Shown here: positions 11,034-20,193 of the stretch, one piece after another | Layout: each line of letters begins with the position of its first letter | How positions within the stretch are numbered: position 1 is the stretch's first letter | From: a virus | DNA: 20,193 bases | Virus record (IMG/VR): IMGVR_UViG_3300005613_000508 | Coordinates: 1-20,193 of that record | Strand: one strand, 5' to 3' | Made by a program: the position numbers and the translations under genes | Notes under the pieces: model-generated | The model's input: the letters and a program-made list of their open reading frames with translations, nothing else | Database searches by the model: none | What the model was told of the DNA's origin: nothing

Positions 11034-11163
11034 GTAGTATACAAAAATAGTAACACCCCCAATGGGGGGAATACCCCCCAGCCGCCGCAGAGCGGCCCTA
11101 AAGGGCCGCTCGTGTGTATTTCAACCCCCCTGAATGGGGGATTATCCCTCTGTATGGGGGTTC
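11034..11163 (+). repeat. Intergenic hairpin cassette A
   Basis: No gene in 11019-11200. Three parts: C5 (11056-11060), G6 (11064-11069) and C6 (11074-11079) blocks that can pair in two mutually exclusive ways; the palindrome with arms GAGCGGCCCT (11090-11099) and AGGGCCGCTC (11102-11111); then C6, G5, CCCTC and G5 blocks ending in GGGGGTT. Copies B to F share the layout. It separates the P2 and P3 units and probably terminates the former. Confidence 0.85.
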
Positions 11164-11899: not shown

Positions 11900-12145
11900 A
11901 TGAGCGATTTTGACAACGACGAACTTTGGTTTGATGCTCTGGAAGATTTTCGCGGACCAGAAATCACCGCAGAAGAGATGGAGTGGAGTGTGAGCGATGC
12001 CGACTATGAGGCTTGGCTTGCCCGTAGGTCAGAAAAGTTGAAGCGGAAAACAGCCCGCGACCATGAGGCTGAAACTAGAGCGAAGACTCTAGCATTCTAC
12101 ATGAATGAGGACAATATCCTGAACGAACGTTCACTGTGGGAATGA
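11900..12145 (+). CDS. Hypothetical protein, 81 aa, duplicated module copy 1
   Basis: ATG 11900 follows AGGAGATTCAAG. The protein runs MSDFDNDELWFDALEDFRGPE..., then a charged helical region (RRSEKLKRKTARDHEAETRAKTLAFYMNEDN) ending NERSLWE. From about residue 13 it is nearly identical to residues 43-112 of the gene at 13414, and the DNA is also nearly identical, so one is a recent duplicate. No family is recognised. Last gene of the P4 unit. Confidence 0.78.
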   Translation: MSDFDNDELWFDALEDFRGPEITAEEMEWSVSDADYEAWLARRSEKLKRKTARDHEAETRAKTLAFYMNEDNILNERSLWE

Positions 12146-12153
12146 AAATCTGT

Positions 12154-12301
12154 ACACTACCCCATTGGGGGATAACCCCCCTTTGGGGCTTAGTGTGTTT
12201 TTGTACACCCCTCTAATGGGTGATCAGCCGCCGCAGAGCGGCCCTAAAGGGCCGCTCGTGTGCGTTTCAACCCCCCGAAGGTGGGGATCGTTGGGTTTTT
12301 T
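12154..12301 (+). repeat. Intergenic hairpin cassette B
   Basis: No gene in 12146-12364. First a nested hairpin: ACACTA (12154-12159) pairs with TAGTGT (12191-12196) around C/G blocks and is followed by GTTTTTG, an intrinsic terminator. Then the palindrome GAGCGGCCCT (12236-12245) / AGGGCCGCTC (12248-12257). Then AACCC...GGGG...GGGTTTTTT (12269-12301), where the C block can pair with either G block and the second is followed by T6. Confidence 0.85.
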
Positions 12302-13044: not shown

Positions 13045-13160
13045 GGGGGGGTGTTAATATACACCCCCCCAATGGGTGTTTATACCCCCAGCCGCGTCGG
13101 AGCGGCCCTAAAGGGCCGCTCGCCGTGTGTCAACCCCCTCTGATGGGGGATCGCGGGGTT
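13045..13160 (+). repeat. Intergenic hairpin cassette C
   Basis: No gene in 13031-13229. A perfect 10-bp hairpin, GGGGGGGTGT (13045-13054) with ACACCCCCCC (13061-13070), loop TAATAT; the palindrome GAGCGGCCCT (13100-13109) / AGGGCCGCTC (13112-13121); then CAACCCCC...GGGGGATCGCGGGGTTT (13131-13161), the third hairpin with two competing G blocks. Confidence 0.85.
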
Positions 13161-13194
13161 TGGCATAATATTTGCCTTAGCAAACGGCGTGCCA
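13161..13194. promoter_or_regulatory. 34-bp dyad with sigma54-like arms, before P6
   Basis: TGGCA (13161-13165) and TGCCA (13190-13194) with inner TTTGC/GCAAA. Arms: rightward TGGCAT-AATAT-TTGCC, leftward TGGCAC-GCCGT-TTGCT. Same 34-bp length as the copies at 12301 and 19588. It lies 35 bp before the P6 -35. Confidence 0.75.
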
Positions 13195-13413: not shown

Positions 13414-13752
13414 ATGAAACCCTATACATATCATGGCGTTGACTACAATCTGCTTTCCATTGAAGAGTTTGAAGCCGCCATCGCAGAACTCACTAGAGAG
13501 GCTGAGAGCATCCCTCTCCCGGAGGGTGAAGAGTTTTTTGACGCTCTTGAAGATTTTCGCGGCCCCGAAATCACTGAAGAGGAAAAAGAGTGGAGTGTGA
13601 GCGATGCTGATTATGCGGCTTGGCTTGATCGTAGGTCAGAAAAGTTGAAGAGAAAAACAGCCCGTGATCATGAGGCTGAAACTAGAGCGAAAACTCTAGC
13701 ATTTTACATGAATGAGGACAATATCCTGAACGAACGTTCACTGTGGGATTGA
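13414..13752 (+). CDS. Hypothetical protein, 112 aa, duplicated module copy 2 with extra N-terminus
   Basis: Start ATG 13414 has CAAGGAATCC upstream. Residues 1-40 (MKPYTYHGVDYNLLSIEEFEAAIAE...) are unique; residues 43-112 repeat the protein at 11900 almost exactly. The duplicated DNA spans about 13549-13749 against 11941-12141 with mostly synonymous differences, so the copy was fused to, or lost, an N-terminal segment recently and has stayed under selection. Family not recognised. First of three genes in the P7 unit. Confidence 0.82.
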   Translation: MKPYTYHGVDYNLLSIEEFEAAIAELTREAESIPLPEGEEFFDALEDFRGPEITEEEKEWSVSDADYAAWLDRRSEKLKRKTARDHEAETRAKTLAFYMNEDNILNERSLWD

Positions 13753-13755
13753 ATC

Positions 13756-14348: not shown

Positions 14349-14466
14349 TATACAACCCGCTTGGGGGGTTAATCCCCCCTGGCGGGCTATACGAGCCGCG
14401 ACGGAGCGGCCTTAAAAGGCCGCTCGCCCTGTGTCAAGCCCCCCGAAGGTGGGGATCGTGGGTTTT
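14348..14466 (+). repeat. Intergenic hairpin cassette D
   Basis: A long nested hairpin: GTATA (14348-14352) / TATAC (14388-14392), CCCGC (14356-14360) / GCGGG (14382-14386), GGGGGG (14363-14368) / CCCCCC (14374-14379). Then the palindrome GAGCGGCCTT (14404-14413) / AAGGCCGCTC (14416-14425), which differs from A-C by a paired C:G to T:A change. Then AAGCCCC...GGGG...GGGTTTTTT (14435-14466). Confidence 0.88.
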
Positions 14467-14476
14467 TTGTTTTTTC

Positions 14477-14493
14477 TCAAGAATACCGCTTGA
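14477..14493. promoter_or_regulatory. TCAAG-N7-CTTGA dyad overlapping the P8 -35
   Basis: TCAAG (14477-14481) and CTTGA (14489-14493). The right arm includes the first four bases of the -35, so a bound dimer would block RNA polymerase. Copies before P9 and P10. Confidence 0.55.
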
Positions 14494-14517
14494 CGTTGCC
14501 GATATACTTTGTAGAAT
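14490..14517 (+). promoter_or_regulatory. Early promoter P8
   Basis: TTGACG, 16-bp spacer with GCCGAT, TAGAAT. Confidence 0.83.
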
Positions 14518-15474: not shown

Positions 15475-15604
15475 TTGGGGGATAATATATAACCCGTTTG
15501 GGGGATTAAACCCCCCAGGCGGGCTATACGAGCCGCGACGAAGCGGCTGTTAACAGCCGCTCGCCATGTGTCAACCCCCTGAAGGTGGGGATCGTGGGGT
15601 TTTG
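15475..15604 (+). repeat. Intergenic hairpin cassette E
   Basis: No gene in 15460-15659. A hairpin CCCG...GGGGG (15493-15504) / CCCCCC..CGGG (15511-15523); then a 20-bp palindrome AGCGGCTGTTAACAGCCGCT (15542-15561), which keeps the position of the A-D palindrome but with compensatory base changes; then AACCCCC...GGGG...GGGGTTTT (15572-15603). Confidence 0.87.
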
Positions 15605-15611
15605 GAAAATC

Positions 15612-15627
15612 TCAAGATTCCGCTTGA
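15612..15627. promoter_or_regulatory. TCAAG-N6-CTTGA dyad overlapping the P9 -35
   Basis: TCAAG (15612-15616), CTTGA (15623-15627); the CCG before CTTGA is also shared with P8. Confidence 0.55.
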
Positions 15628-15651
15628 CAATGCCGATATAGAGTGTATAAT
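15624..15651 (+). promoter_or_regulatory. Early promoter P9
   Basis: TTGACA, 16-bp spacer with GCCGAT, TATAAT. The predicted start, about 15658-15660, coincides with the first base of the structured RNA that follows. Confidence 0.87.
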
Positions 15652-15659
15652 CAAAGCAT

Positions 15660-15763
15660 CGCCCAGCCAAGCAAGATGGAGTACAGATAGGCTATCTTAT
15701 CACTTGACATAGCCTAGTGTTTCTGGTAAGATACTGTACTGAGGTGCGAGTCCTACCTGGGTG
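15660..15763 (+). ncRNA. 104-nt tRNA-like RNA with internal pseudoknot, copy 1
   Basis: Outer stem CGCCCAG (15660-15666) / CTGGGTG (15757-15763), 7 bp like a tRNA acceptor. Next CCA/TGG mini-hairpin (15667-15679) in the D-arm place. A 17-bp helix is made of AGTACAG/CTGTACT (15680-15686, 15734-15740) and TATCTTATCA/TGGTAAGATA (15693-15702, 15724-15733). The bulge TAGGC (15688-15692) can pair with loop GCCTA (15712-15716). A T-arm-like hairpin AGG-TGCGAGT-CCT (15742-15754) lies at tRNA spacing from the 3' stem. It follows P9 exactly and ends in TTTT. Identical to 20087-20190. It is either a free RNA or a leader for the gene at 15788. Confidence 0.7.
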
Positions 15764-15787
15764 TTTTAATATACTTTGGAGAAGATG

Positions 15788-15985
15788 ATGAAAGTAACTC
15801 TGGCAGATATTGGTGAGGCTAAGATTCTCGCAGAAGAAAACTACAATACGTGGGGACAGTATATAGTTGAGTGTTACACTAGCGAGGAACTTGCAGAACA
15901 ACTTGCTGAGTTTGACACCCTTGAAGAATGGGTGGAGATCCGACAAAGAGTGGCTAAAATATATGAAGAGCGTATGAGTACTTAG
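15788..15985 (+). CDS. Hypothetical protein, 65 aa
   Basis: Paired ATGs at 15785 and 15788; TTGGAG spacing favours 15788. The helical acidic protein (MKVTLADIGEAKILAEENYNTWGQYIVECYTSEELAEQLAEFDTLEEWVEIRQRVAKIYEERM) has no recognised family. It lies 24 nt after the tRNA-like RNA on the P9 transcript. Confidence 0.78.
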   Translation: MKVTLADIGEAKILAEENYNTWGQYIVECYTSEELAEQLAEFDTLEEWVEIRQRVAKIYEERMST

Positions 15986-16651: not shown

Positions 16652-16742
16652 CCCTTTTGGGGGATATGGGCCGCGACGAAGCGGCTGTTAACAGCCGCTC
16701 GGCCTTTGTCAACCCCCCTGGTTGGGGGATCGTGGGGTTTTT
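16652..16742 (+). repeat. Intergenic hairpin cassette F
   Basis: No gene in 16642-16815. The first hairpin is reduced (CCCTTTTGGGGG). Palindrome AGCGGCTGTTAACAGCCGCT at 16680-16699, as in E. Third hairpin AACCCCCC...GGGGG...GGGGTTTTT (16710-16742). It terminates the P9 unit after tRNA-Lys. Confidence 0.86.
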
Positions 16743-16750
16743 AAAAATCC

Positions 16751-16767
16751 TCAAGAGGTCGCCTTGA
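16751..16767. promoter_or_regulatory. TCAAG-N7-CTTGA dyad overlapping the P10 -35
   Basis: TCAAG (16751-16755), CTTGA (16763-16767), the third copy of this arrangement. Confidence 0.55.
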
Positions 16768-16791
16768 CATAGCCGATGATAGGTGTATAAT
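16764..16791 (+). promoter_or_regulatory. Early promoter P10
   Basis: TTGACA, 16-bp spacer with AGCCGATGATAG, TATAAT; consensus at both hexamers. TTGACATAGCC is also present inside the 104-nt RNA element. Confidence 0.9.
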
Positions 16792-19654: not shown

Positions 19655-19682
19655 TTGACAATGACGATACTAGGTGTATAAT
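19655..19682 (+). promoter_or_regulatory. Early promoter P12
   Basis: TTGACA, 16-bp spacer (ATGACGATACTAGGTG, one base off the GCCGAT word), TATAAT. Confidence 0.87.
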
Positions 19683-19993: not shown

Positions 19994-20002
19994 CCCCACA
20001 AT

Positions 20003-20074
20003 GGCCCCATAGTTAAACGGAAATAACAAAACTCTTCTAAAGTTTAGTTGGAGGTTCGATTCCTCCTGGGGCTA
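20003..20074 (+). tRNA. tRNA-Arg (anticodon UCU)
   Basis: Acceptor GGCCCCA/TGGGGCT, D-arm GTTA/TAAC with GG, anticodon stem AAACT/AGTTT with loop CTTCTAA (anticodon TCT, codons AGA/AGG), T-arm GGAGG-TTCGATT-CCTCC, discriminator A, no CCA. Confidence 0.96.
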
Positions 20075-20086
20075 TTTTTAAAACTT

Positions 20087-20190
20087 CGCCCAGCCAAGCA
20101 AGATGGAGTACAGATAGGCTATCTTATCACTTGACATAGCCTAGTGTTTCTGGTAAGATACTGTACTGAGGTGCGAGTCCTACCTGGGTG
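20087..20190 (+). ncRNA. 104-nt tRNA-like RNA with internal pseudoknot, copy 2
   Basis: Base-for-base identical to 15660-15763, including one T before and three T after. Here it lies 12 nt after tRNA-Arg on the P12 transcript rather than at a transcript start, so in this copy it would have to be released by tRNA-type processing. The window ends 3 nt beyond it. Confidence 0.7.
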
Positions 20191-20193
20191 TTT

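Follow-up and report, generated by a model that had tools for sequence, protein, structure and literature searches.

The window, i.e., the whole stretch of DNA analyzed here, is a complete IMG/VR virus record of 20,193 bases, which is a linear fragment. A terminase gene is located on its minus strand (PHROGs and Pfam). On the plus strand there are numerous small ORFs along with three tRNAs and several strong promoters. The closest relative that we found by sequence is G001, a 73-kb phage contig (IMGVR_UViG_3300005611_000013). Promoters of the family around TTGACNNTGCCGATATANNNTGTANAAT are present in the window at 14490-14517, 15624-15651, 16764-16791 and 19655-19682 with a conserved spacer GCCGATA, and exact matches to this family were found in 24 IMG/VR stretches, mostly ahead of small ORFs. 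The small ORFs of the window are separated by terminator-like intergenic hairpin repeats (AGCCGC...GCGGC..GGGG) that are approximately 67-89% alike (13089-13169, 14393-14473, 15531-15610, 16669-16748, 11079-11142 and 12225-12288). The window also holds a 217-nt direct repeat (11930-12146 and 13537-13753, 90% identical), in which the terminal part of a small protein gene is present twice.

One 104-nt element, hereafter E1, is located at 15660-15763 on the plus strand (CGCCCAG...CTGGGTG), and an identical second copy is found at 20087-20190 on the same strand, three nucleotides before the contig stops. The identical stretch covers 108 nt (15659-15766 and 20086-20193), which is a minimum length for the duplication because the stretch runs into the contig end. 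The element and its copy had been proposed in the initial annotation at exactly these coordinates, together with a start of copy 1 at a promoter and a location of copy 2 in a tRNA unit, all of which our analysis bears out. Copy 1 begins where transcription from a perfect promoter (15624-15651, +; TTGACA-16-TATAAT, family TTGACNNTGCCGATATANNNTGTANAAT, 12/12 hexamer matches) is expected to start. Copy 2 is preceded at a distance of 11 nt by tRNA-Arg(TCT) (20002-20075, +), and a promoter of the TTGACNNTGCCGATATANNNTGTANAAT family lies upstream of the unit that contains both (19655-19682, +). A small ORF (15788-15985, +), for which PHROGs and Pfam gave no match, starts 24 nt downstream of copy 1. 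E1 is also identical in G001, within a 550-bp block (98.4% identity) that extends from just upstream of the promoter through two small ORFs. The absence of differences over the 104 nt is not significant alone, since the flanks diverge by only about 2%.

All the helices proposed for E1 are present and mutually compatible (plus strand throughout). The acceptor-like P1 pairs CGCCCAG (15660-15666) with CTGGGTG (15757-15763) over 7 bp, one of them G-U, and is followed by a discriminator-like T at 15764, with no encoded CCA. A D-like hairpin with a 3-bp stem (CCA-AGCAAGA-TGG, 15667-15679) stands flush against P1. The 5′ strands of P3 (AGTACAG, 15680-15686; 7 bp with 15734-15740) and P4 (TATCTTATCA, 15693-15702; 10 bp with 15724-15733, including one G-U) are separated by a 6-nt bulge, ATAGGC (15687-15692), and their 3′ strands are contiguous (15724-15740). 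On the 3′ side, a T-arm-like hairpin (AGG-TGCGAGT-CCT, 15742-15754) has a stem of three Watson-Crick pairs. The initial annotation further suggested a pseudoknot between the bulge and the loop. The 5-bp complementarity TAGGC/GCCTA (15688-15692 with 15712-15716) is indeed found. In addition, the 21-nt apical loop contains a predicted extra hairpin, P5 (GACAU-AGCCUA-GUGUU, 15706-15721), and in the MFE fold its loop (15711-15716) faces the bulge. The pseudoknot is thus predicted to be a kissing interaction between bulge and hairpin loop, of up to 6 bp (UAGGCU/AGCCUA).

Thermodynamic folding of E1 returns the nested part of this structure together with the apical-loop hairpin. The folding energy itself is weak (z = -1.55; 15 of 200 shuffled sequences fold equally well), and we dropped it as evidence. 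The two-part helix alone is expected about 1.2 times per shuffled window. The helix together with 5 bp or more of complementarity between bulge and loop occurs 0.04 times per shuffle (12 in 300), versus two observed, i.e., both copies. The strong evidence for the structure of E1 is comparative and comes from the aligned relatives described below.

A first model search of 49 related records yielded the identical copy and one sub-threshold match only. No match was obtained by blastn for E1 against phage and plasmid records or for two group-B members (see below) against phage records. When IMG/VR was searched for exact occurrences of 16-mers from the D-like region and the P3/P4 core, only chance matches appeared besides the identical copy. 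The E1 core had no match in bacterial genomes. By covariance models and an architecture scan, we have identified relatives of about 104-155 nt in some twenty related viruses. They fall into three sequence groups in phage contigs: E1 (the window and G001), S1 (three records) and B (16 copies in 15 records). Each phage carries one group only in the records searched. The covariance search of related phage genomes that had been suggested for this element was thereby productive.

S1 was found with a descriptor that specified a 7-bp acceptor and a T-arm at any length. This element of 131 nt had no annotation and has the same sequence in two phages, the terminases of which share 85% identity with that of the window. 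Its elements come in the same order as those of E1 (acceptor, flush 3-bp hairpin, P3, bulge, P4, kissing hairpin and T-arm); P3 is CUCCAG/CUGGAG, and the bulge sequence UGCGA pairs with UCGCA in the hairpin loop. In both phages S1 starts about 10 bases behind a promoter, TTGACTTTGCCGATATAGATTGTATAAT, of the same family as that of E1. The S1 model detected a third such element, in G061 (63.7 bits, E = 1e-14), in which the kissing pair is CGCUA/UAGCG and the P1 and kissing pairs are changed with compensation.

Adding the bulge/loop requirement to the descriptor led to the first group-B member, a 134-nt sequence in G042. Very similar sequences lie upstream of homologs of the 15788-15985 ORF in six other contigs, and the group-B model, built from nine of these sequences, identified 16 copies in 15 of 46 records. 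In the resulting alignment, 95.8% of the cells are paired, and 16 of the 39 pairs change on both sides, compared with 6.5 in shuffled alignments (0/500); sliding the partners lowers the pairing to 35-44%. Only the nested structure, not the kissing pairs, guided the fitting of this alignment. The kissing helix is 100% paired, with both-sided changes in three of its six pairs, and its variants include AUAGCC/GGCUAU, AUAACC/GGUUAU, AUAAGC/GCUUAU and UUAAGC/GCUUAA. The shortest member (106 nt, in G056), from which the extra insertion is absent, adopts the E1 topology when folded unaided, with a 6-nt bulge AUAACC versus AUAGGC in E1. The group-B pattern also matched twice in bacterial genomes, and both matches were rejected by the group-B model.

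It is evident from this comparison that E1, S1 and B share one predicted architecture: acceptor-like ends, a flush short hairpin (with equivalents of the D-like hairpin of E1 in both S1 and B), P3, bulge, P4, a kissing hairpin and a T-arm-like hairpin. When E1 is compared with this family outline, every element is found in its proper place, and covariation among the members is seen in both P4 and the kissing helix; the bulge position of the kissing pairs covaries in group B, in S1 and in the G061 member. The two pairings singled out for a check in relatives, the pseudoknot and the 10-bp helix, have thus changed with compensation. Record-wide model searches do not cross the groups (models R1 and R3 detect no group-B member, model R2 misses both E1 and S1, and searches of G001 with the models of the other groups give no E1 match), and S1 does not align to the group-B model. 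In targeted searches, the S1 model aligns end to end to E1, exactly at 15660-15763, with 14.5 bits (next best 3.1), and the group-B model aligns to 15661-15762 with 13.4 bits (-1.5 on the reverse strand). These targeted scores correspond to E values of about 2e-4 to 3e-4 for 201 nt and are not significant genome-wide. Because the order of elements, bulge position, kissing partner, promoter type and downstream ORF are shared, the sizes are similar, and given the targeted scores, common descent of the three groups appears quite likely.

These results also bear on whether the interior of E1 is partly a promoter, with an incidental structure. A promoter-like site is present at 15704-15732 (TTGACA, a spacer of 17, and TGGTAAGAT), and this TTGACA-17-TAAGAT site with an extended -10 has 10 of 12 hexamer matches plus TG; moreover, its start TTGACATAGCC also opens the promoter at 16764. 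However, about 1.4 promoter-like sites are expected by chance in the region, the architecture persists in S1 and B despite their unrelated sequences, and the helix with its kissing match is rare in shuffles. We therefore regard this explanation as very improbable. E1 is a real RNA element. The initial annotation had left its family open. Rfam, searched with E1 and the group-B loci in gathering and E-value modes, gave nothing besides tRNA except sub-threshold chance matches, but the element can now be placed in the newly outlined family. Searches of Rfam 15 and of the literature accessible without subscription turned up no described family, and E1 very probably belongs to a phage RNA family that has not been described.

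The family is associated with the small ORF behind copy 1. In all eight contigs that carry the ORF family (the window, G001 and L090-L095), such an RNA lies upstream at a distance of at most about 0.8 kb; in the six contigs other than G001 with a homolog of the window's ORF (56-60% identity), it is a group-B RNA about 0.2-0.8 kb upstream. E1 could then be a cis-acting leader of this ORF, with a regulatory or processing role, as suggested by the 24-nt spacing in the window and by the association kept in eight contigs. S1 does not fit such a role. E1 and S1 both lie directly behind members of one strong promoter family, but the next promoter follows within about 40 nt of S1, with no ORF in the unit, which indicates that S1 is a stand-alone unit. 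Moreover, the group-B RNAs of G055 and G042 adjoin other RNAs or other genes, and copy 2 of E1 follows a tRNA. Since S1 stands alone and group B occurs in RNA arrays, the leader switch raised in the initial annotation is unlikely, and we give the cis-acting explanation as a whole little weight.

The ends of E1 have a tRNA character. A 16-mer on its 3′ side, AGGTGCGAGTCCTACC, is a tRNA T-arm sequence that was found in 44 IMG/VR stretches, 31 of which lie inside tRNAs called by ARAGORN (24 of them tRNA-Tyr); several of the remaining stretches outside ARAGORN calls look tRNA-like. E1 has a 7-bp P1 and a 7-nt T-loop, UGCGAGU, at the right spacing, yet its T-stem is just 3 bp, because the canonical T-stem UGAGG/CCUAC has two outer mismatches. 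E1 resembles phage tRNA genes, class II tRNA-Tyr in particular, in T-arm sequence, genomic setting and promoter type, but differs from them in lacking a canonical D-arm and an anticodon arm with a 7-nt loop. In place of the latter, the sequences predict a long P3-bulge-P4 arm that is clamped by the kissing of bulge and hairpin loop. E1 is called by neither ARAGORN nor the Rfam tRNA model RF00005. The earlier description of a discrete tRNA-ended element without an anticodon arm is supported.

Could E1 simply be a functionless degenerate tRNA, or the remnant of an intron-bearing one? In this phage group, group I introns interrupt tRNA genes, and there are tRNAs in which the anticodon arm is altered; moreover, the T-arm of E1 is that of phage tRNA-Tyr. 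However, covariation and a bulge/loop pairing conserved across diverged groups point to selection, and the promoters are strong and dedicated. In view of the covariation above all, we consider decay scarcely credible. We also dropped the idea that a spliced-out intron restores a normal tRNA, since the D region is too short in E1 and S1 (12-13 nt). The group I intron model RF00028 does not match E1, although it finds an intron in G001.

Known tRNA-like RNAs include tmRNA and Y RNAs, and also the 3′ ends of plant RNA viruses. In the tRNA-like domain (TLD) of tmRNA, the D-loop is reduced and stemless, a long helix, H2, replaces the anticodon arm, and G3-U70 is a conserved identity pair that is required (PMC3968760). 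E1 resembles this domain in its acceptor-like stem made from both ends, its T-arm on the 3′ side, its reduced D region and a long pseudoknotted helix in place of the anticodon arm. The resemblance to the tmRNA TLD noted in the initial annotation is therefore fair as architecture, but does not extend to membership. The G-U pair is at 2:71 in E1 (C3-G70, G2-U71) rather than at 3:70, E1 has a D-like stem where tmRNA has none, and tmRNAs are 230-400 nt long compared with 104-155 nt for the family here. Moreover, RF00023 matches neither E1 (up to E = 5) nor a group-B member, and the Rfam library that misses E1 does detect a separate tmRNA in G001 (L007:19178-19529, minus strand; RF00023, 97 bits; tag GETHLALAA). 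ARAGORN reports a further tmRNA* in L170:8115-8539 (tag AKPSFALAA). A short frame GCT..TAG (AILSLDIA) was seen in E1 by eye only.

This comparison raises the possibility that E1 is a message-less look-alike of the TLD that binds SmpB or the ribosome rescue site and blocks or redirects trans-translation. The layout of acceptor, reduced D region of 12-13 nt, long helix and T-arm is that of the TLD (PMC3968760), and the tmRNA of G001 suggests that this phage group engages the pathway. Weighed against the lack of G3-U70, the lack of an Rfam tmRNA match and the presence of a D-like stem, an action on SmpB seems unlikely.

Bacterial Y RNA mimics tRNA in a circularly permuted form (PMC11472068), and the YrlA type (PDB 6CU1) is similar to E1 as a non-coding tRNA mimic that has also been reported from phages. 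Y RNA is permuted and ends in a Ro-binding stem, whereas in E1, S1 and B the two ends pair into the acceptor-like stem. No Ro/Rsr gene (TROVE, PF05731) was found in the 15 phage records, which may be incomplete, and a control genome was positive. As a tRNA, a tmRNA or a Y RNA, E1 was rejected by the tests that we ran.

Phages are also known to produce other small or structured RNAs. T4 stable RNAs species 1 and 2 are small RNAs of the tRNA cluster without an assigned function, made together with the phage tRNAs. By that description alone they resemble E1, and our literature search found no paper on them. GOLLD and ROOL are structured phage RNAs, often near tRNA genes; they are several times larger than E1, which has no Rfam match.

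Taken together, the data are best explained by a set of phage RNAs that share one architecture, combine tRNA-type ends with a clamped arm and act in trans, and we consider this explanation to be somewhat favored. The RNA would be made early from a host-type promoter or within tRNA operons. Host tRNA-processing enzymes may trim it to a stable stand-alone form, given that we found no terminator behind E1 and that its two ends pair as an acceptor. The mature RNA would then act in trans, because S1 stands alone and group-B RNAs occur in arrays or tRNA clusters. The module of P3, bulge, P4 and kissing pairs is the most constrained part, and the T-loop and acceptor are looser in group B. This suggests that the core probably makes a specific contact, and that the ends serve maturation and stability. 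The clamped arm may thus be the specific working part, with a core that binds a protein or the ribosome, and the tRNA-type ends may in addition give entry to tRNA-binding sites or factors.

As for the job itself, the likeliest is mimicry, in which the RNA would occupy a host factor that recognizes the acceptor/T-arm half of tRNA or of the tmRNA TLD, without decoding; we put it forward only tentatively. The case for tRNA mimicry as the selected function is weakened by some group-B members, in which P1 measures 5 bp and the T-loop does not resemble that of a tRNA. The RNA might alternatively serve as a decoy against tRNA-directed defense, i.e., tRNA-cutting toxins or nucleases, while being spared itself through its replaced anticodon arm. 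The host-type promoters, the tRNA units and the absence of a codon-reading arm would suit a decoy. However, most known anticodon nucleases require the anticodon arm, which is missing here, and no link to defense was found; this explanation is rather improbable.

A broader proposal, which we regard as possible but short of probable, is that mimicry by this family defines a viral RNA of a new class, namely a tRNA look-alike in which an arm locked by a kissing loop stands in for the decoding arm. A large uncharacterized phage group would use it in trans to occupy a host factor that handles tRNA or ribosomes, and would express it in an RNA island alongside several further structured RNAs that have not been described. 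If so, the phage family would represent a further, non-permuted tRNA mimic, in which the acceptor/T-arm half is kept and the decoding arm is swapped. The family shows that phage tRNA islands contain uncharted RNAs that are missed by tRNA finders and Rfam, and it supplies precise, covariation-backed pairs for mutation.

Several other RNA-like elements were observed in related phages. One conserved element of about 75 nt is present at 11 loci (L215, L091-L095, L185, L193, L196, L199 and L201; e.g., GGCAGAATGATATCAAAGAAGCCACGGTTAAATGCAAAGCCGAGTATGGCATAA); its closing stem shows compensated changes (TGTACGGG/CCCGTACA and ATATAAGGG/CCCTTATAT), and it has no Rfam match in L215, L091 and L093. Another conserved and undescribed element, CCAGTAATCGTTCCCAAGAGCCAGAC...TTCGCTGG, of about 110-160 nt, adjoins group-B RNA and is found at L187 14270-14410, L091 4825-4975, L092, L095, L231, L235 and L239. 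RNA modules are connected by a recurring linker, AATACAA, at L210 9940-10380 and also in L215, L187 and L246, which is possibly a processing signal.

Unusual tRNA-like genes were also found. A tRNA-like RNA with normal acceptor, D-arm and T-arm (L187:13970-14072, plus strand; L165:9486-9584, minus strand; L239) carries the conserved sequence GGGAAGTTCCGAA.TGCGACA...GTAGGCAAACAAATGCCC in place of the anticodon arm and barely passes the Rfam tRNA cutoff. A group I intron of about 190 nt is located inside a tRNA gene of G001 (L005:7685-7874, minus strand), and a similarly interrupted tRNA is found at L165 8940-9200. In two tRNA-Asn-like genes (L113:5940-6081, plus strand, and L130:910-1048, minus strand), the anticodon loop is split by about 70 nt, which is too short for a usual group I intron. 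Directly behind a promoter, L166:11768-11857 (minus strand) holds a 90-nt tRNA-like element with two T-arm-like hairpins and no tRNA call, and tRNA-like genes at L099 9300-9460, in another phage, have T-arms without the usual T-loop (GGGGCAGTACCTT).
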